Part shown: positions 6,236 to 64,000 of the stretch, in pieces | Layout of the letters: each line of letters opens with the position of its first letter | How positions within the stretch are numbered: the stretch's first letter is position 1 | Assembly: GCA_037074765.1 (NCBI GenBank) | Contig: JBAMDO010000080.1 | Coordinates: 124,001 to 188,000, forward strand | Reading direction: 5' to 3' | DNA: 64,000 nt | Origin: Mansonella perstans | Taxonomy: Eukaryota; Nematoda; Chromadorea; Rhabditida; Onchocercidae | Notes under the pieces: generated by a model | Seen by the model: the letters and a program-made list of their open reading frames with translations, nothing else | The model's database searches: none | What the model was told of the DNA's origin: nothing | Program-made: the position numbers and the translations under genes

Positions 6236-8955
6236 ATGAGTCAAGAATCCGATTTGACTGATCATTCTGTTGGTAGAATTAAGAACTTGACTAAATATCA
6301 ACAAGCCACGAGTGGAGTGATAAATAAATATATGTTAGTAGAACTATCAAGTTATTTAATTTATTTGTGACTATGCATAACCGACTTTCATTATATCCAA
6401 TTTAATGGGTGCCATTTTCGAATTACCTTCGGAAAATTCCCAAACCTTTCAGCACGGTCTCTTCAAAAGTTTATACCACCCTGTATTTTCAGGTCCCCGA
6501 GCAGCGATAGTGGTGTTGATGCGAATATATCGACAGATCATTTGTCCTCTACGAATAATATATCGAATATATCGACTGATTTGTCCCCTACGACAAATCA
6601 TTTGTCCCCTACGACAAATCATTTGTCCCGTACGACAGATCATTTGTCCCGTACGACAAATGATTTGTCCCGTACGACAAATGATGATTTGTCCCGTACG
6701 ACAAATGATCATTTGTCCCGTACGACAAATGATGATTTGTCCGGTGCGACAAATGATGATTTGTCCGGTGCGACAAATGATGATTTGTCCGGTGCGACAA
6801 ATGATGATTTGTCCGGTGCGACAAATGATGATTTGTCCGGTGCGACAAATGATGATTTGTCCCGTACGACAAATGATGATTTGTCCGGTGCGACAAATGA
6901 TGATTTGTCCCGTACGACAAGTGATGATTTGTCCCGTACGACAAATGATGATTTGTCCCGTACGACAAGTGATGATTTGTCCCGTACGACAAATGATGAT
7001 TTGTCCGGTGCGACAAATGATGATTTGTCCCGTACGACAAATGATGATTTGTCCGGTGCGACAAATGATGATTTGTCCCGTACGACAAATGATGATTTGT
7101 CCCGTATGAGTCCAGCAACCTATGGTGGTTTAGACATTATGGCATATCGCCTGCAGTATATGAGGTATATCTTCCGTGATTTTTTGAGAATAAAAGAAAA
7201 CTTAAGAATTTTAAATTTGAAATTTTCTTTTTTTAAAAAGATTGTCGTAGTTTAATGAACTTGAATGTTCTGCTCCGACAACTTGATGTAATATGATTTG
7301 AAATCAAATAAGATTACTGATTTCAGTTTTGAGGGATCTGATAACGTAGGAAATACTGAAAGGCTTGCCGAATATGAGAACAAGGAGAACATTTGTCCAC
7401 TACAAAGTCATGCAGATACGGGGACTGCTTCGTTATCGCGAGGTTGGCTCCGCACTAACATGTGAGAAAGAACATCATTTTGTTCCACTTGTTATTACTA
7501 ATTTTCAGCTTATTCCAATAACATCTTTTTAAATTCTGGCGCCATCGTTATTTCACAGTAGCTTTATTGTAAAAATCTTGCATATAAGAAGTGTTAAGGT
7601 ATCTAAACAGCGAATAGTTGACATGATAATTGCATTTTTTTAGCATATGCAAGTAAGCGCTAAGTTTGAATCGTTTTTTTTTTTTTTTTTTTTTTTTTTA
7701 AAGGGATTAAAGTGCTTAGCAAAGATATAAATTTGTTTCTTTTAGGGAAACTGTTCAACGAAATCATCCACAATTTGGACAGCGTGAACAAGAAACTCCT
7801 TTGCGAGTTTTCACTGATTTTTCACCGCCCCACGCTCCAAACGTTTCATCTTTATCGCGCTCATCGCATAATGTGCCTGCTTTTTCACCACCTGTGGCAC
7901 CTGCACACCCTTCAGTACCACCTGCACACCCTTCAGTACCACCTGCACACCCTTCAGTACGCCGGCGACGAGCGAGAATACAAGCCGGAGAAGCAGAATC
8001 CGGTCAACTCCTTGTTCGAATACCAAATCTTATTTTTACTAGGTTTTTCCTTCCTTCTGATGTTTCAAACCAAGTTAATGTTGAATAATCTTTCTTCAGC
8101 TTCAGCTTCAGCTTCAGCTTCTGAGGTTTTGCCAAAAGTAAATCGTTTTGGATGGCGTGGTACTGCACCAGAAACGCCTCCGTTTTCTAAAATCAGTGAC
8201 GCTTCCGGGGTTTCGAACGTAGTTCTTGCGAAGTCTGCTACCGCTTTTTTTTTTTTTTTTTTCATTATATGTCTTAACAAGTTATAAATGTTTTCTTAGT
8301 TTTGTTTTCTCAGTATAAACTCATCAGTTTTCTTCCAGATATTACGAATCACTGTTCTACAATCTATTCTTAGCAGTACGCATTTTGACTTCAGTTCTGT
8401 CTCTAATTAAATAAATAAGCTTAGTCGATTAGTTAGTCGATCTTTTTCAAAATGCACCAAAAACTGTAGCTTATTTTTGTTACAAAAACAGTATAGCAGA
8501 AAATGAAATTTAATTTTTAGTGGACAGAGAAACGGACTTCCAACTGTCGGTGCACAAACAGCAATAAACACAAGTTTTGTCACTCCACCATCTAAACCTC
8601 TGCCACCACCTTCGGCTCCCAAAAAACAGAGGATCGATAAGAAATCTCTGGGAACTATCTGCAGTCCTTCATTGTCCCAAGAAAGTCCCATAAAGAAGCA
8701 GTCAAAGTTACTCCGAAAGCGCAATTTTTCTCCTTCGTCCACTGATACCAGTATCTCGCCTATGATGCTTCGGTCGGCACTGAAGCCGCGTCGTTCAACA
8801 CGTACTAAAAGTAAGTTATCGCAATTGCGCAAGTATTTTTATATCATTATTAATAATAAGTGCTATAATACTATAAATGGATTTCAGGAATGCCGAACCG
8901 TTACAGCAGTAATTTCGATCGTCGTGCTAACATACGTAAGAAGAAAGGAAGATAA
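6236..8955 (+). CDS. unrecognised disordered protein with KEN box and octapeptide repeats
   Basis: Exons inferred at 6236-6333, 6493-7164, 7327-7461, 7746-8042, 8521-8810 and 8888-8955 (519 aa, all phases consistent). Exon 2 encodes a DSGVDANIS segment and then a long tract of seven- and eight-residue repeats (NDDLSRTT / NDDLSGAT). Exon 3 carries a KEN box (AEYENKENICP), the APC/C destruction signal of many cell-cycle proteins. Exon 4 has Pro-rich text with PPAHPSV three times. Exon 5 has SP/TP sites and basic clusters, and the tail is basic (NIRKKKGR). An alternative chain ends exon 4 at 8002, adds an exon at 8100-8209 (contains RFGWRGTAPETPP) and starts the next exon at 8528; it is also in frame (540 aa). 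No family recognised. A cell-cycle role is only suggested by the KEN box and SP/TP density. Confidence 0.6.
6572..7106 (+). repeat. coding minisatellite, 21-bp then 24-bp units
   Basis: It begins with about five 21-bp units (ACGACAAATCATTTGTCCC type) and continues with about eighteen 24-bp units that gained an extra GAT. The 24-bp units come in two flavours, CCCGTACGAC and CCGGTGCGAC. Both unit lengths are multiples of three, so copy-number change keeps the gene frame. Three or more of the six frames are open through the whole array. Confidence 0.9.
7898..7960 (+). repeat. 21-bp direct repeat x3 in coding sequence
   Basis: Three near-identical copies encode PAHPSVP-type heptads inside exon 4 of the KEN-box gene. 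The copies keep the reading frame. Confidence 0.85.
8094..8118 (+). promoter_or_regulatory. tandem splice acceptors (CTTCAG array)
   Basis: Four successive CTTCAG hexamers follow a pyrimidine-rich stretch, so the acceptor can be chosen in 6-bp steps without changing frame. Each step removes one Ser-Ala pair from the optional exon 8100-8209. This is inferred from sequence only. Confidence 0.35.
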
Positions 8956-51161: not shown

Positions 51162-51499
51162 TATATGTCACATTTTGCATTTCAGTATATTTTAGAGTTA
51201 ATTTCAAGATACATTAGATGAGTGAAAGCTCCATATTAAGATGATATGAGAGAGTCGTAGTTAGTGATGTAATTTTTATTTGTTTTTTTTTTTTTTTTTA
51301 TTTCTTTTTATCAGTTTTCTTTTTCATTATGGAACAATGATTTTTTTCCATTTATTATCTGTATTATTAGCTTATAATTATAAATTTTCTTGAATCAGTA
51401 TCTGAGAAATATATTAAATCTTCATTGAAATTTATAGTGAATAAAATATTAGAAGGTCATTTGATAATTTTCCATACTTATGAGAATTTAAATGACATT

Positions 51500-51511
51500 C
51501 TTATTTCAGTA
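51500..51511 (+). promoter_or_regulatory. likely trans-splice (SL) acceptor of the large ORF
   Basis: CTTATTTCAG ends 2 bases before ATGATGGAT at 51512. The frame is open further upstream, but that stretch is AT-rich and hydrophobic and unlike the rest of the protein. So translation probably starts at 51512 or 51515. Confidence 0.45.
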
Positions 51512-54500
51512 ATGATGGATAAGGAGGATAACAAAGTGATGGATGATCATGCTGAGCTACATGACAGGATTTCGTTTGATGATTCAGCACTGCAACAGTG
51601 CACAACCAATAAAAATGATATTCAACAAATCGATGAAGTAATAAATTTACGAAGTATCACAGTTGATAATCTACAACACTATGATGAAGGTTTGTTAAGA
51701 AGCAAAGATGTGCCGGAAAAAGAAACCAATTCTGTGAGCCTTCAGTTAGAATTTCCGCTTACTGACCTTGCAGAAGCGACGAGTATACATATAGATTCAA
51801 TTTTGAGAAATCAGAATACAATCTCGGAAGCAGATAACTCACATTCTCAAAAACCACCATTCACTTCGTCGGATTATAAAGCACCTTATGAGATTGGAGC
51901 TCAACAACCAATTCCGTTTGAATTCGAAAACTATGCAAATCAAATTTTGGGACAGAAGCAAACACAGCCGTTTGTTACAGCTAACAGTAATATAGTAGCA
52001 GAAAAAACCAACGATCAAGTTGCTGATGCTTCTGCGCTCTACCAGGTTGCTGATAAGTCGGAAGATCAACAAACAATGAATGATGAGGTTATGAATATTT
52101 TCGAGCCGGTCAAAAATTTCTCACAAGAGTTACAAACCGAGAAACAAGCAAACTTTGAAACGTTACATGATAAAGAAAACTCAAGAAGAAATGAAGCAGA
52201 AATAACTGATAACATGTTGAATAAGAATTCGGGAAATTGGGATTCCGAATATCAGCAGTCCGAGAAATGTAAAGTAACAACTTGTGCTTCTAATAGAGAA
52301 AGTGCCAATGATGCTGAACAAGGGTTTCATCTTTTCACTACAGAAAATCGGAAATCAGAAGAAACAGCAATCCCGGGTGAAATATTATATGTAGTCCCAG
52401 AAAGTAGTGAGAAATCTCAAGAGACTCTAGTCAATGCGGAATTTTCTAAAAGTGCACATTCCGAAAAACTTGTTACAGCAAAAATCCACTCAGTGCCAGG
52501 AGTTTCAATTCTAAAAGAAGCGGTTAAGGAAAACATAATACATCGAAGCAAGACTAATGAAACTAATCTTATCATGGAACAAGTTCCATTAGTGCAGGAT
52601 AGACCTGCAAAAAGTTCTACTGGAGGAAAATCTCTGGAAAAGTTGAACTTTTTTGAAAGTGAAGGAAGATTTACTCCAGAACAAAATGGAACTAGTCATA
52701 TAAACGAACCTACGAAATTATTGATTCCAGAATATGATTCACAAAATATCAATCCGGAGGTTTTGGAAGAAATGAAGTCAGGAAAGGAATTTATATTACC
52801 TAGTGGTGAAAAAATATCTGAGCAAACTTCGATAAATATGAAAGCAATGCAAATTGCAGAAAATGCAGGAAATATGAAAGCAATTCAAGATGAACATCCA
52901 GAACAGAATGAAAGCGAAAATGTTCATGAACAGGCACTTAACGTAACGAATGCTCGACATGAAGAAAATATGAGAACTTCGAGTAAATGCACAGAAATGA
53001 TTTCGGAAGACAGAAATAACACAGTTTATGAATCTGATGCTCTGTTTCATGAAAGTAAAACAGTAACGGAAGAAGATAAAAAGTCTGATTCAGCATCAAA
53101 TATTTCGGATTGCAAACAGGAAATGAATAAACAAGAAACTGATGAAAATATTGCAGTAAACAATGGAATAATTAAAGTGAAGTGTGCTGAATTTTCCGGA
53201 TCTATGTATAAGCAAAAAAAAGGCAACGACAAAGTTATAAAAAACGAATTGAAAAATATCAAGCAAAATGCTTCAAATAATGTCACAAAATGTAAATCAA
53301 CTAAAAAAACATCGTCAACAACTATTAAAGTGACCATCCCAACATCGACAGATGTGACAAAAAACAACCAGATGATAACTGTCAAAAAAATGGTGAAAAA
53401 ATCAGCCGTAACTTTACCCTTACTTTCTGCGAAAAGTACAATTTTGGAGGGAAAAACTGTCGGGCAAATTGGATTGAAGCAGACAACAAATGTTGCAAAT
53501 AGTAACAATATTAAAGTTCAAAGAGAAAACAAAAAATTAACAAAGATGCCAAATGTGACATCAAAATTAACTCAGAAAACACTTCAACAACGTGTAATTA
53601 CAAAATCGAAAATTAGCGATAAAATGAATGCGATGAAGTTTCAATCAAAAGATATCAAAGATTGCGAAAAGAACAGAAATGAAATGAGAAATGACACAAA
53701 TGAATTAGGAGGAAAGAAAAGGAAAATCGGAGCAATTAACTTTGAACCATTAATTTGGACAGAAACTTTGATGCCTGTTTATGAGCAAATTTGGGAGAAT
53801 TTGGAAATAGCAACAAAAATCAGCGATAAGAGCAATGGGGTATTTGAGAGAGAAATGGAGAAGAAACCTGAAAACGAAATGAAAATGAAAAATGATCATT
53901 CGGGAACAGAATGGGCGATACGGGAAAATTCGAAATTGATGATAAACGAAATTGTAAAATCAGTTAATTTGTCGAATGGCAATGAAATCAATGTTCCACA
54001 ACATTCATTAAATGAGCATGGGAAGGATTTCATTCTAGATATTTCGGATTCTTTAAAAATAAGGAAGGATGAAAAAGTAACTGTTGAAAAAGAAATGGTA
54101 GCAGATAGTAGTAGTGGAAAACGTGAAATTGAAATTCCCGCTTCGATACCAATTAGACCTTGCGAAGCAACAGAAATGAAGTACCAAATTTACTTGGAGC
54201 AAAAAAACCTCGAAACTATGGCAGGACAAGACATTGGAGCAGATACAAATAAAAATTCTGATGATTCTCATGAAAATATGAATGAATGTATTATACCAAG
54301 ATTAAAATCAAATTCAATAGAAGCAGGAAATGAAACAGAAGCTGTTGTTGATGAAGGAGTCGGGATTGAGGATATGGTGCAAAAAACTGAAGGAATAACA
54401 GAAAATGATGGAAAAATAGTACCATCAGAAATGGAAAAATCAGAGATCAAGCTTGAACGAAATATTTATTATGAACAATTAGGACAAATTGAAAAAAAAG

Positions 54501-54928
54501 CACCAGTATTAGCAGAATCAGGTTCCGAGCAGAAGATACAATCGGAACTGGAAACAAATGATGTTCACAAATATAATGAGACAAATATAATGAGTAATAA
54601 GCATTGTCAGCAGAAAGGTCACTTTGATAGGACGTATTCGGATACACCGGAAGAATGCATGCATAATATTTCCGGGAAGGATAGTTCACATAAGCATAAG
54701 CAGGTCGATGCAAAAAGAAACTATTCACAGCAAGCACACAGTGGAATTTCTAATAATGTCGAATTACAAGGCAATTATCAGCAACAGCAAAATGGACATC
54801 AGGATCATCCATCGAAAAAGCAGCAGAATTCCGTGGATCATTCCAGCGGCGAATACTATCAGAACTCCTCCGGTCGACAAGGAAACAGCAAACAAAATAA
54901 ACGAAACAAGAAGTTACGTAACTTTTAA
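51512..54928 (+). CDS. ~1138-aa charged low-complexity protein, unrecognised
   Basis: One uninterrupted 3.4-kb reading frame, remarkable next to neighbours made of 100-200 bp exons. The start MMDKEDNKVMDDHAEL follows a TTTCAG site. The protein is rich in Glu, Lys, Asn, Ser and Gln and almost free of hydrophobic runs, so it should be largely disordered. Residues ~566-740 are strongly basic and Ser/Thr/Lys-rich (KKTSSTTIKVTIPTST). The only aromatic-rich island is at ~744-763 (NFEPLIWTETLMPVYEQIWE), a candidate short interaction helix. The C-terminus is Gln/His/Asn/Ser-rich and ends KQNKRNKKLRNF. The frame might be extended 3' by splicing at TTAC|GTAACT, but the next exon is unclear. I do not recognise a family; a scaffold, cytoskeletal or nuclear role would be a guess. 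Confidence 0.7.
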   Translation: MMDKEDNKVMDDHAELHDRISFDDSALQQCTTNKNDIQQIDEVINLRSITVDNLQHYDEGLLRSKDVPEKETNSVSLQLEFPLTDLAEATSIHIDSILRNQNTISEADNSHSQKPPFTSSDYKAPYEIGAQQPIPFEFENYANQILGQKQTQPFVTANSNIVAEKTNDQVADASALYQVADKSEDQQTMNDEVMNIFEPVKNFSQELQTEKQANFETLHDKENSRRNEAEITDNMLNKNSGNWDSEYQQSEKCKVTTCASNRESANDAEQGFHLFTTENRKSEETAIPGEILYVVPESSEKSQETLVNAEFSKSAHSEKLVTAKIHSVPGVSILKEAVKENIIHRSKTNETNLIMEQVPLVQDRPAKSSTGGKSLEKLNFFESEGRFTPEQNGTSHINEPTKLLIPEYDSQNINPEVLEEMKSGKEFILPSGEKISEQTSINMKAMQIAENAGNMKAIQDEHPEQNESENVHEQALNVTNARHEENMRTSSKCTEMISEDRNNTVYESDALFHESKTVTEEDKKSDSASNISDCKQEMNKQETDENIAVNNGIIKVKCAEFSGSMYKQKKGNDKVIKNELKNIKQNASNNVTKCKSTKKTSSTTIKVTIPTSTDVTKNNQMITVKKMVKKSAVTLPLLSAKSTILEGKTVGQIGLKQTTNVANSNNIKVQRENKKLTKMPNVTSKLTQKTLQQRVITKSKISDKMNAMKFQSKDIKDCEKNRNEMRNDTNELGGKKRKIGAINFEPLIWTETLMPVYEQIWENLEIATKISDKSNGVFEREMEKKPENEMKMKNDHSGTEWAIRENSKLMINEIVKSVNLSNGNEINVPQHSLNEHGKDFILDISDSLKIRKDEKVTVEKEMVADSSSGKREIEIPASIPIRPCEATEMKYQIYLEQKNLETMAGQDIGADTNKNSDDSHENMNECIIPRLKSNSIEAGNETEAVVDEGVGIEDMVQKTEGITENDGKIVPSEMEKSEIKLERNIYYEQLGQIEKKAPVLAESGSEQKIQSELETNDVHKYNETNIMSNKHCQQKGHFDRTYSDTPEECMHNISGKDSSHKHKQVDAKRNYSQQAHSGISNNVELQGNYQQQQNGHQDHPSKKQQNSVDHSSGEYYQNSSGRQGNSKQNKRNKKLRNF

Positions 54929-61281: not shown

Positions 61282-62376
61282 ATGTATTAATTTGCAAATA
61301 ATTATCGCATTTTGCTACCTTTAATTGCTTTCTCATCTTGATCCGAGAAATATTCCGGAAAGAAAAGTCATTTACATTGAATCAAAGGGTACACCGTATT
61401 TTACGCTTGACAAAATCCGATTTGAGGTAACGTGAGAATGCAGCAGTGATGCTTAAGGTGCGACGAACAAATAAATTATACGCTCAAGAAGAAGCTATCA
61501 AAAATTTCCAATTTTATAATCTAGAAGAAAAATATGTAGAAATACTTTCATTAATATTGAGCATGTCCAAAATAAGATTCAAAATGCAAGCTTAGAAAGT
61601 AAAAGCTTTGATCATCTGGAAACCAACTAAGGCTGGGATCTGTAGGATGAATCTGTATCCTGGATTAATGGCATAAATTAATTGTGGATCGGTGTAGAAT
61701 TGTTCTAATTCTGATCATTTTTAAAAATTGAAGAAAAGCTGAACATAACAATGATGAAAGCAAAAATTACATATGCATTACATATACATGCGATGTCTTC
61801 CAACTACTTCATATTATCATCGAAACGGCTAAAAATAAACGAAGTTTGATTTATAATTCCGGATCAGATGCCATATTTTTTACACTTCGCCTATAATATT
61901 GAATGTATAGATATATCAATCTCCCAGTCTTTTTTCTCTTATTACTTCAATAGTCTCAATTGGTGCACTGTGACCATTTCAAAGGGGGAGGAGGAGCATC
62001 GTTTTCGTGCGGTAGTTCATCCCACATTTACCGATACATCAATCAGATGCAATTATTGGTACTGCAACTGCTTCTGCTGCTGCTGTTTCGCTTCTCGGAT
62101 AATTTCATAAAAGGTTATCTACACTGATTGTTATCTTCTGCAGTGATACCGTATCTAACCTATTTCTTATCATCGAAAATTTATCACAGTCAACAAATTC
62201 CATCAATTTGTGAAATCTTACTTATTAAATTAAAACAATATTTTAACATTACATGAATTCTTATTTGTAGCACAAAAAATTCGATTGATAGAAAATTCTG
62301 TAAGTCAATTGCTCAATCCATCTTCCGATTATTTGTTGCAAACGTTAAGTATAAGAATAAAATGGTGAGATTTCAG

Positions 62377-63277
62377 ATGCTATGCGCTGCGTTACTTATC
62401 GATAGATTTCCCTCACAAATAGGATATATTCCGTGTTGGGCAACGATACTTTCAAGCTTTATGGAATTATTTGCGACGAATACTGCTCGAATTGTTCCTA
62501 TAGACAATCATATTCCCGTTTTCATCCTTGCGACAGAAACCGAACAGAAGACAAAATTTATGGATGTTACCATGCAAACATCGTCTGGTTTGTAACTTTT
62601 TGCTAAAGAATTTGCAATCAAATTTGTAAATCCCTTTTTTACTTCGTTGCATTAAATTTCAGGAATGCAAATGAGCACATCAATGATAGCTCGTCAATTG
62701 CGTGACATGGCTGACAGGTTCGAGTATTTCTACATCGAGAATGAACAGCACTCCATATGCACACCGGCATCATCAACGTTGCAGTCACAGGTCAGAATTT
62801 GTTGCATAATCTCTCGGGGAAGTTATCCCGAAAGGAAAAATAGACTCACTTGAAATTAAGTAAGTCCTACATTAGATTTTGTGCAAACAGAGCGAATCTT
62901 AATAAATACTTTGATAAAATCCCAATCATTCGCTAAGGTTTAAAGTTACAATTATTGCGCAAAATGCGATTGGCACAGATTTCCGAGAAGTACACAATGA
63001 CGCATCACTTGAAGATTTCTGAATCTTTCGCATTTTTCTCTAAAGAAATGGCTATAAATGATCTAAAAAACAGTAAAATTCATTTTAGTGTTTAATCCCA
63101 ACTTACCAGTATTGTACAATTTAGAATACCATTTGCGCTTATCATTTGCGCCAAATCTAAAATTATTTTCAGTCACAAAACCAATCGTTTACAACTTTCA
63201 TCGCATCAACTGCAAAAAATTTCGTTAACGCTTTATTGGAACGGATACTGGAGCAGTTTTATTTGAGGAAAAAATAA
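62377..63277 (+). CDS. candidate BH3-only (EGL-1-like) cell-death activator
   Basis: Exons 62377-62587, 62663-62790 and 63173-63277 join in phase (147 aa) with TTTCAG acceptors. Exon 2 encodes IARQLRDMADRFE. This fits the BH3 pattern: hydrophobic I, then L four on, M three on, small residue plus Asp, and F two after the Asp. The I-L-M-D-F spacing is the same as in the C. elegans EGL-1 BH3 helix. BH3-only proteins of this kind bind the Bcl-2 homologue CED-9 and release CED-4, triggering caspase activation. The last exon ends in an amphipathic helix (FVNALLERILEQFYLRKK), and EGL-1 also has a hydrophobic C-terminal tail. The N-terminal exon matches nothing I know. Two further exons may precede it in phase (62271-62299, and 61954-62113 with an ATG at 62047 and a Leu-rich run). 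The assignment rests on a short motif, so it is tentative. Confidence 0.45.
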
Positions 63278-64000
63278 CTTGCCTGTCCATTCTGTGCTTA
63301 TGAGTGATATTTGCCTATTAGATAAGGCCTAGCAATTATAATCAGAATGGTCCAAACTTAGTGTTTGCATTTAGAGAACTGATTTGTAGTTGGAGCGGGA
63401 GAGAATATGTAAGCTAATATCACACTTTATTTTTTATCAAGTATAAAGTTAATTATTAATCAATTCATGTATTTATTTTGTGTCTAATTAGTACTCTGTG
63501 ATAAATTAATAGCCATTAAATGGAAAATTACTCTAAACTCAAGCTAAGCAAAAGTTATATCTGTGAATTTTGCGGCGGACAAAGAAGGAGCTTACTATTA
63601 CTTTTGTTGTATTTGGCTTTTAAATTGAGAAAGTATTGTTAAAATTAAAAGAAATTTGCAATAGACACATTAATTCATTATTACAATTTATTTCTGAACT
63701 TTGTTGGATGCAAGACAAGAGCGCATAAAAATTATAACTTGAAGAGTACGGTATCAATAGCCGAAAGATTCAACTGTGCTATTGGTGCCTCTATAAATGA
63801 CGTAATATGGAGTGACACCTGGTCATTCAACTTTTTCGCTTTAATTAATTCAACTGTGAGAATTCATTAATCTGAAGCCGAAAGCATTTTTTACTACCGT
63901 TTACAAGTGGCCAATGAGTGCTTTAGCACACTGACCAGTCTTTAAAGTTATTATTTTGCCCACATTTTTTACCGTGAAATGATTGATTCAACGGAATTAT
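63278..64000. other. 3' flank, no gene seen
   Basis: AT-rich sequence to the window end, beginning with the presumed 3' UTR of the BH3-like gene. No open frame with splice support was found. Confidence 0.5.

Follow-up and report, generated by a model that had tools for sequence, protein, structure and literature searches.

BH3-only proteins and the cell death pathway in nematodes

The closest described counterpart of the gene analyzed here is EGL-1 of Caenorhabditis (PF11430; PDB 1TY4). Both are short proteins with one BH3 motif of the form I-x3-L-x2-M-x-D-x-F, no other BH domain was found in either, both have a helix-like C-terminal end, and CED-9 is the presumed target of the filarial protein. 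BH3-only proteins have been identified in the nematode branch that includes C. elegans, but, according to a 2022 analysis, none in the other nematode branches (PMC8998228). For filariae, the pathway is presented as EGL-1/CED-9/CED-4/CED-3 in a review whose accessible text contains no gene sequence (PMC10538269), and extensive apoptosis is reported to follow Wolbachia depletion (PMC3207916). EGL-1 has been tracked by immunoblot in Setaria cervi, in one paper with commercial antibodies, and the filarial gene goes unnamed in the accessible parts of these articles (PMC6283587, PMC6089915). As far as the available text describes it, Sayonara of Drosophila offers a likeness by description only, namely a late-recognised BH3-only protein in an ecdysozoan previously without any (PMC10107002). 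In a full-text literature search, whose scope leaves subscription papers and bioRxiv preprints outside, the titles and opening lines of abstracts name neither the gene analyzed here nor a sequenced filarial BH3-only protein, and the same literature yielded no article on its Brugia malayi homologue Bm10621.

The window, that is, the whole stretch of 64,000 nucleotides that was analyzed, corresponds to positions 124001-188000 of contig C80 (229,957 bases) in a searched genome of 75.7 Mb and 539 contigs. Near its end lies a small gene whose protein, judged by its sequence, probably belongs to the BH3-only class. We consider it probable (roughly 0.8) that this protein works like EGL-1, by opening CED-9.

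Structure of the window gene

The window gene consists of three exons with 459 nt of coding sequence that, after scripted splicing, yield a protein of 152 aa containing MIARQLRDMADRFE and a C-terminal helix. Its features are as follows.

62261..62270, + strand: possible trans-splice acceptor (ttatttgtag), 5' of the first ATG, identified by eye
62362..62587, + strand: coding exon 1, starting MVRFQMLC and ending at a phase-1 donor (spliced translation)
62425-62526, + strand: conserved segment in exon 1, residues 22-55, kept in homologues
62588..62662, + strand: intron 1, GT..AG, 75 nt, phase 1 (spliced translation)
62663..62790, + strand: coding exon 2, the BH3 exon, 128 nt (spliced translation)
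62683..62721, + strand: BH3 core MIARQLRDMADRF with canonical residues I84, A85, L88, M91, A92, D93 and F95 (matrix and homologues)
62791..63172, + strand: intron 2, GT..AG, 382 nt, phase 0 (spliced translation)
63173..63277, + strand: coding exon 3 including the stop codon, bearing the C-terminal amphipathic helix (spliced translation; helix predicted in the Onchocerca volvulus homologue)
63230..63274, + strand: C-terminal ALLERILEQFYLRKK, resembling the C-terminal LFHRLLDFFAF of EGL-1 (placement against shuffles)

The initial annotation, made from the sequence alone, had proposed a small multi-exon gene with the motif exon at 62663-62790. The spliced model contains this same exon, bordered by AG and GT and in frame with exons 1 and 3, and the gene is conserved in related filariae. 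The claimed EGL-1-like spacing of I, L, M, D and F also stands, given that IARQLRDMADRFE of the window protein has the I-x3-L-x2-M-x-D-x-F spacing of IGSKLAAMCDDFD in the EGL-1 chain of PDB 1TY4, and the features of the BH3 motif (four hydrophobic residues, small residues and Asp) are all present. The proposed C-terminal helix, ALLERILEQFY, is encoded by exon 3 and coincides with a helix predicted by AlphaFold2 in the O. volvulus homologue.

There are two candidate starts, 62362 (MVRFQMLC) and 62377 (MLC), and several public homologue models begin at MLC. Position 62271 is not a start codon; the TTTGTAG just before it could, by eye, be the acceptor site for a splice leader. Downstream of the gene, no match was detected in 63278-64000 to the seeds of miR-35 and bantam/miR-58, the microRNAs associated with egl-1 in C. 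elegans; seeds of the miR-2 type do match at 63304 and 63496-63498, possibly by chance. Elsewhere in the window, a short unit appears to be repeated in tandem at positions 6381-7136, where both strands have several open frames, and positions 51371-54928 (+ strand) hold a charged open frame of 1185 aa with no Pfam match at E 0.1.

Homologues and conservation of the BH3 core

When the spliced translation was searched against some 5.8 billion proteins, 15 of 31 candidates proved to be homologues. These public models, which are 55-73% identical to the window protein across 49-100% of its length, come from nine named species in eight named genera (Onchocerca volvulus, O. flexuosa, Brugia malayi, Cercopithifilaria johnstoni, Dirofilaria immitis, Acanthocheilonema viteae, Loa loa, Elaeophora elaphi and Litomosoides sigmodontis) and from two unnamed contigs; some species contribute several models, and none is marked as the window gene's own. 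A profile search extended the family to 19 of 2128 candidates by adding two unnamed entries and two of Gongylonema pulchrum, which, according to a taxonomy look-up, belongs to Spiruroidea, as opposed to the Filarioidea that include Litomosoides. None of the names attached to these homologues fits, all being 'uncharacterized', 'hypothetical', 'unnamed' or seemingly accidental; the accidental-looking names are ATP-dependent RNA helicase, Transactivator/viroplasmin, COesterase, DUF4614 and DUF3077, and a Pfam domain is listed for none of the proteins that carry them. By eye, several public models read on past exon 2, so that the C-terminal exon is missing from them.

The core IA[RQ][QR]LR[DE]MAD[RK]F, followed by E, is present in 18 of the 20 sequences (19 homologues and the window protein; 13 distinct stretches), and in the two others (P0015 and P0016) exon 2 is, by eye, not read in frame. 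Conservation of I, L, M, D and F in related filariae had been set beforehand as one of the tests on which the BH3 proposal could fail, and it passed that test. Four of the 12 core positions vary, comprising four of the five exposed and none of the seven canonical ones (one-sided p 0.010), with the limitation that the filter pattern fixed the canonical residues, so that invariance among the matched sequences is by construction. No sequence that reads the exon departs from the canonical BH3 residues. In exon 1, the segment YIPCWATILSSF..TARIVPIDNHIPVFI is conserved in filariae almost to the same extent as the BH3, and a search for a known counterpart of this segment (62425-62526) found none.

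The short exons, taken alone, would be compatible with a chance open frame and no gene at all. This extremely improbable reading is rejected on account of the protein-level conservation across the 15 public models, and on the same comparison the conserved small gene is real.

Strength of the BH3 motif and a second BH3 gene

In a 13-position matrix built from ten vertebrate BH3s, the window motif scores 20.2 bits, compared with 20.9 and 21.1 for Gongylonema and 18.8 for EGL-1; vertebrate BH3s that were left out score 13.7-24.4, with three of the ten exceeding 20.2. A matrix restricted to the four BH3s whose sequences appear in the search results gives 21.9 for the window motif versus 19.7 for EGL-1. 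Among the 53,463 six-frame 13-mers of the window, the runner-up reaches 9.0 bits. When the scan is extended to the 188,567 six-frame 13-mers of the contig, a second gene (hereinafter gene 2) ranks first with 23.7 bits, the window gene and an inverted copy of it follow with 20.2 each, and the next score is 11.3. Under random-composition nulls, the expected number of such scores in the contig is 9e-4 for 23.7 bits and 0.013 for 20.2; at any one position, the probability of reaching 20.2 bits is 6.9e-8, rising to 3.2e-7 for a helix-like composition. For an entire proteome, whose size was assumed, about 0.3-0.6 chance scores are expected, so the motif alone is insufficient, and the case for a BH3 is carried by conservation in other species and by the second BH3 gene nearby. 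The positions of gene 2 and of the duplicated arms are as follows.

C80:195099-195216, 195503-195630 and 195830-195886, + strand: gene 2, three exons, 100 aa, 7.8 kb downstream of the window gene and outside the window
61990..64000, + strand: left arm of an inverted duplication of about 2.46 kb, as far as it falls within the window; the whole arm is C80:185990-188441
C80:201866-204331, opposite strand: mate arm of the inverted duplication, carrying the second copy of the window gene

Gene 2, for which a protein search of the assembly found a single site, carries MIAEQLRRLADDFENEF and agrees with the window gene in both intron phases (1 and 0) and in the length of its BH3 exon (128 nt). In single comparisons, BLASTP aligns its protein to the window protein with 12 of 19 residues identical (E 1e-5), and hhalign aligns it to the family profile over 50 columns with a probability of 91 (E 9e-7). 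By these measures of protein similarity, gene 2 is a detectable, diverged paralogue of the window gene.

The two arms, between which gene 2 is located, are 97% identical. A comparison of the two gene copies over 916 bases shows four substitutions, of which one falls in exon 1 and three in introns, while exon 2 is identical; in exon 3 the copies differ in length by one base, which changes how the C-terminus of the second copy is read. The duplication could still be an assembly error. The left arm starts inside what appears, by eye, to be a further 5' exon upstream, which reads MGGASFSC.. in the other copy and has similar sequence in Brugia and Dirofilaria models, and the window copy thus seems to be without the ATG of that exon. 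Another part of the contig, outside the window, contains a direct segmental duplication (C80:51455-62957 and 58352-69987) in pieces of 0.6-2.4 kb with 91-99.9% identity. The proposal of a single upstream trigger, made in the initial annotation, has to be given up in view of the near-identical second copy and of the diverged paralogue with a higher-scoring BH3.

Database searches and predicted structure

Among 177,635 PDB sequences, the 22-mer encompassing the window BH3 retrieved two, both BIM BH3 and both weak (E 0.35 and 1.1); the best non-self matches of EGL-1, to PUMA at E about 1, are comparably weak. As a single control, the C-terminal helix of the window protein retrieved one PDB entry, NusB. 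No BH3 was found among the three PDB matches of the 82-residue C-terminal half or in the one match of the family profile, an ESAT-6-like protein. For the Gongylonema peptide, one of five PDB matches is BIM and four are GPSM2; the 18 matches of gene 2 include 10 to BAD, PUMA or BIM, 6 to EsxB, 1 to ATF-2 and 1 to the designed peptide dF3, a binder of the Bcl-2 family. In Pfam, all of the following matches are below the cut-off: BRX_N as the only one for the filarial BH3 peptides; BRX_N first and Bim-BH3 second (E 0.097 and 0.098) for two Gongylonema peptides; and Bim-BH3 alone (E 0.099) for the 26-mer of gene 2. Lact-deh-memb, TAFII28 and BRX_N, all below the cut-off, were rejected as identities, and so was DrmE_N, the only Pfam match, again below the cut-off, of the whole gene 2 protein. 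Neither of the two Pfam matches of the window protein up to E 10 is a Bcl-2 domain. Vertebrate BH3-only proteins such as BIM, PUMA and BAD have in common with the window protein a core of the IAxxLRxxxDxF type, but similarity is seen in the BH3 alone.

An AlphaFold2 model of the O. volvulus homologue, built on an alignment of 15 sequences, has a mean pLDDT of 57 and a pTM of 0.31 and contains no confident globular fold. It consists of two helices, one at 76-106 that includes the BH3 and one at 126-153 at the C-terminus, with pLDDT blocks of 77, 79 and 69 (81-110) and 63, 78, 81 and 67 (121-154), and values of 39-54 in the remainder. The hydrophobic moment of the window BH3 is 0.52, compared with 0.49 for BIM and 0.29 for EGL-1. 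The BH3 region is thus predicted to form an amphipathic helix, and the two-helix model fits a BH3-only protein without being specific to this class.

These results bear on the possibility that the gene encodes a Spiruromorpha-specific protein with another function, in which a conserved amphipathic helix mediates coiled-coil contacts or happens to resemble a BH3. The statistics of the single searches against PDB and Pfam are indeed weak, generic helices score alike (the GPSM2 and EsxB matches above), and the conserved segment of exon 1 is without a counterpart in EGL-1. Nevertheless, two different genes 7.8 kb apart head a contig of 230 kb, well above the next score, the substitutions that are seen avoid the canonical positions, and outside the two helices the model has low confidence values, as a disordered chain would. 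We therefore consider this reading unlikely.

Relationship with EGL-1 and CED-13

The Pfam model of EGL-1, PF11430, did not match the window gene in the genome search or in the protein scans, whereas the C. elegans EGL-1 peptide, used as a positive control, matches it at 4.8e-14. The EGL-1 core in PDB 1TY4, IGSKLAAMCDDF, is in the same register as the window core. In a profile comparison of the filarial family with five Caenorhabditis EGL-1-type proteins, hhalign produced a single alignment, of BH3 on BH3 only (score 18.28, p 0.039, probability 1.3%). None of 300 column shuffles reached this score (best 18.13) and reversed EGL-1 scored 13.66, although column shuffling is a lenient null because helical periodicity is lost. 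An ungapped comparison of 14 BH3 residues with EGL-1 was matched by 1 of 2000 shuffles. The profile search that had been envisaged as a check on kinship with EGL-1 gave, in this way, a divided answer, with the BH3 register recovered but at a low probability and with PF11430 silent.

Outside the BH3, the C-terminus of EGL-1 (of the form SLxxRxLDFFAF) places best on LLERILEQFYL, a score reached by 36, 43, 46 and 149 of 2000 shuffles at 11, 12, 13 and 14 residues, respectively. MAFFT aligns the same two segments, the BH3 and the C-terminus, with their filarial counterparts. The conserved acidic N-terminal segment of EGL-1 (FADDSGFFDDSE) has no counterpart in the window protein, and no similarity was seen between the N-terminal halves of the filarial and EGL-1 proteins. 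The window protein is also longer than EGL-1 (152 vs 106 aa) and has a conserved exon 1 segment and a basic tail, LRKK, of its own. With PF11430 silent and the N-terminal halves dissimilar, we classify the protein as a BH3-only protein acting like EGL-1, without assigning it to the EGL-1 family.

Whether the gene is nonetheless truly orthologous to EGL-1 or CED-13, with both lines descended from one ancestral nematode BH3-only gene and most of the sequence eroded apart from the BH3 and a C-terminal helix, is a separate matter that adds to the EGL-1-like reading rather than excluding it. The sole profile alignment, the MAFFT pairing and the placement of the last 11 residues of EGL-1 on the filarial C-terminal helix all point in this direction, as do the number of genes, two as in C. 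elegans, and the size of gene 2, close to that of EGL-1 (100 vs 106 aa). To be set against these are the silence of PF11430, the dissimilar N-terminal halves, the fading of the C-terminal match at 14 residues and the weak hhalign alignment of gene 2 with the EGL-1 proteins, likewise BH3 on BH3 (probability 0.7%); furthermore, short motifs converge. The likeness of gene 2 to CED-13, the second BH3-only gene of C. elegans, is one of gene number alone. On balance, we put orthology somewhat short of an even chance, and common descent with EGL-1 and CED-13 appears possible but not proven. The orthology with EGL-1 suggested in the initial annotation is not established, as PF11430 is silent, the acidic N-terminal segment is absent and the profile alignment is limited to the BH3.

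Pathway partners and proposed function

The genome contains one Bcl-2 site; a search of PDB with its product, for which the exons were joined by eye, finds structures of C. elegans CED-9 with E 3.7e-21. This filarial CED-9 has the sequence SYGRL, and the preceding loop is, by eye in an alignment, two residues longer than in CED-9 of C. elegans. According to the accessible text of one article, an insertion in the CED-9 loop enables dissociation of CED-4 upon EGL-1 binding, a second Bcl-2 gene exists in several filariae, and a BAX/BAK/BOK-like protein is reported for no nematode (PMC7456325). A second Bcl-2 gene was not seen in the genome searched here, where a single place was found. Caspase exons with QACRG are present. 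The NB-ARC model (PF00931) gave five matches in the genome, of which the only one over the cut-off was rejected as CED-4 (by eye, it resembles an ABC ATPase), and CED-4 was not found by this search.

We favor the reading in which the window protein opens CED-9, on the combination of a conserved spliced gene, a canonical BH3 in a predicted helix, the absence of a detected Bcl-2 domain, the presence of CED-9 in the genome and the existence of a paralogue. When the gene is switched on, the BH3 helix (approximately residues 76-106) would dock in the hydrophobic CED-9 groove, where I84, L88, M91 and F95 would fill the pockets and D93 would pair with the SYGRL arginine, by analogy with the role of this arginine in BCL-XL. 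CED-4 would then be freed and the CED-3 caspase activated, while the C-terminal amphipathic helix would probably lie on the mitochondrial membrane or provide an additional contact with CED-9.

Alternatively, the protein might bind CED-9 through its BH3 and play a non-lethal role, in mitochondria, autophagy or the production of eggs or embryos, without triggering death. The core is, in our judgement, conserved above what would be expected of a fast-evolving trigger, and BH3-only proteins with non-apoptotic roles are mentioned in the accessible text of PMC6829140. However, a C. elegans-type CED-9 and caspase exons are kept in the genome, and therefore an opener of CED-9 would be expected to kill, which leaves a purely non-lethal role with a small share of the probability. 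A broader formulation of the lethal reading, in which at least two paralogues at one locus form a filarial BH3-only cluster, start CED-9/CED-3-dependent death and share an ancestor with EGL-1 and CED-13, is tentative, falling slightly on the doubtful side of even odds.

Implications for filarial biology

A filarial protein family with a typical BH3 could supply the first step that has been missing from apoptosis in these worms. It provides a real gene to measure, and the trigger of apoptosis in filarial parasites may now be tested with peptides and recombinant CED-9.
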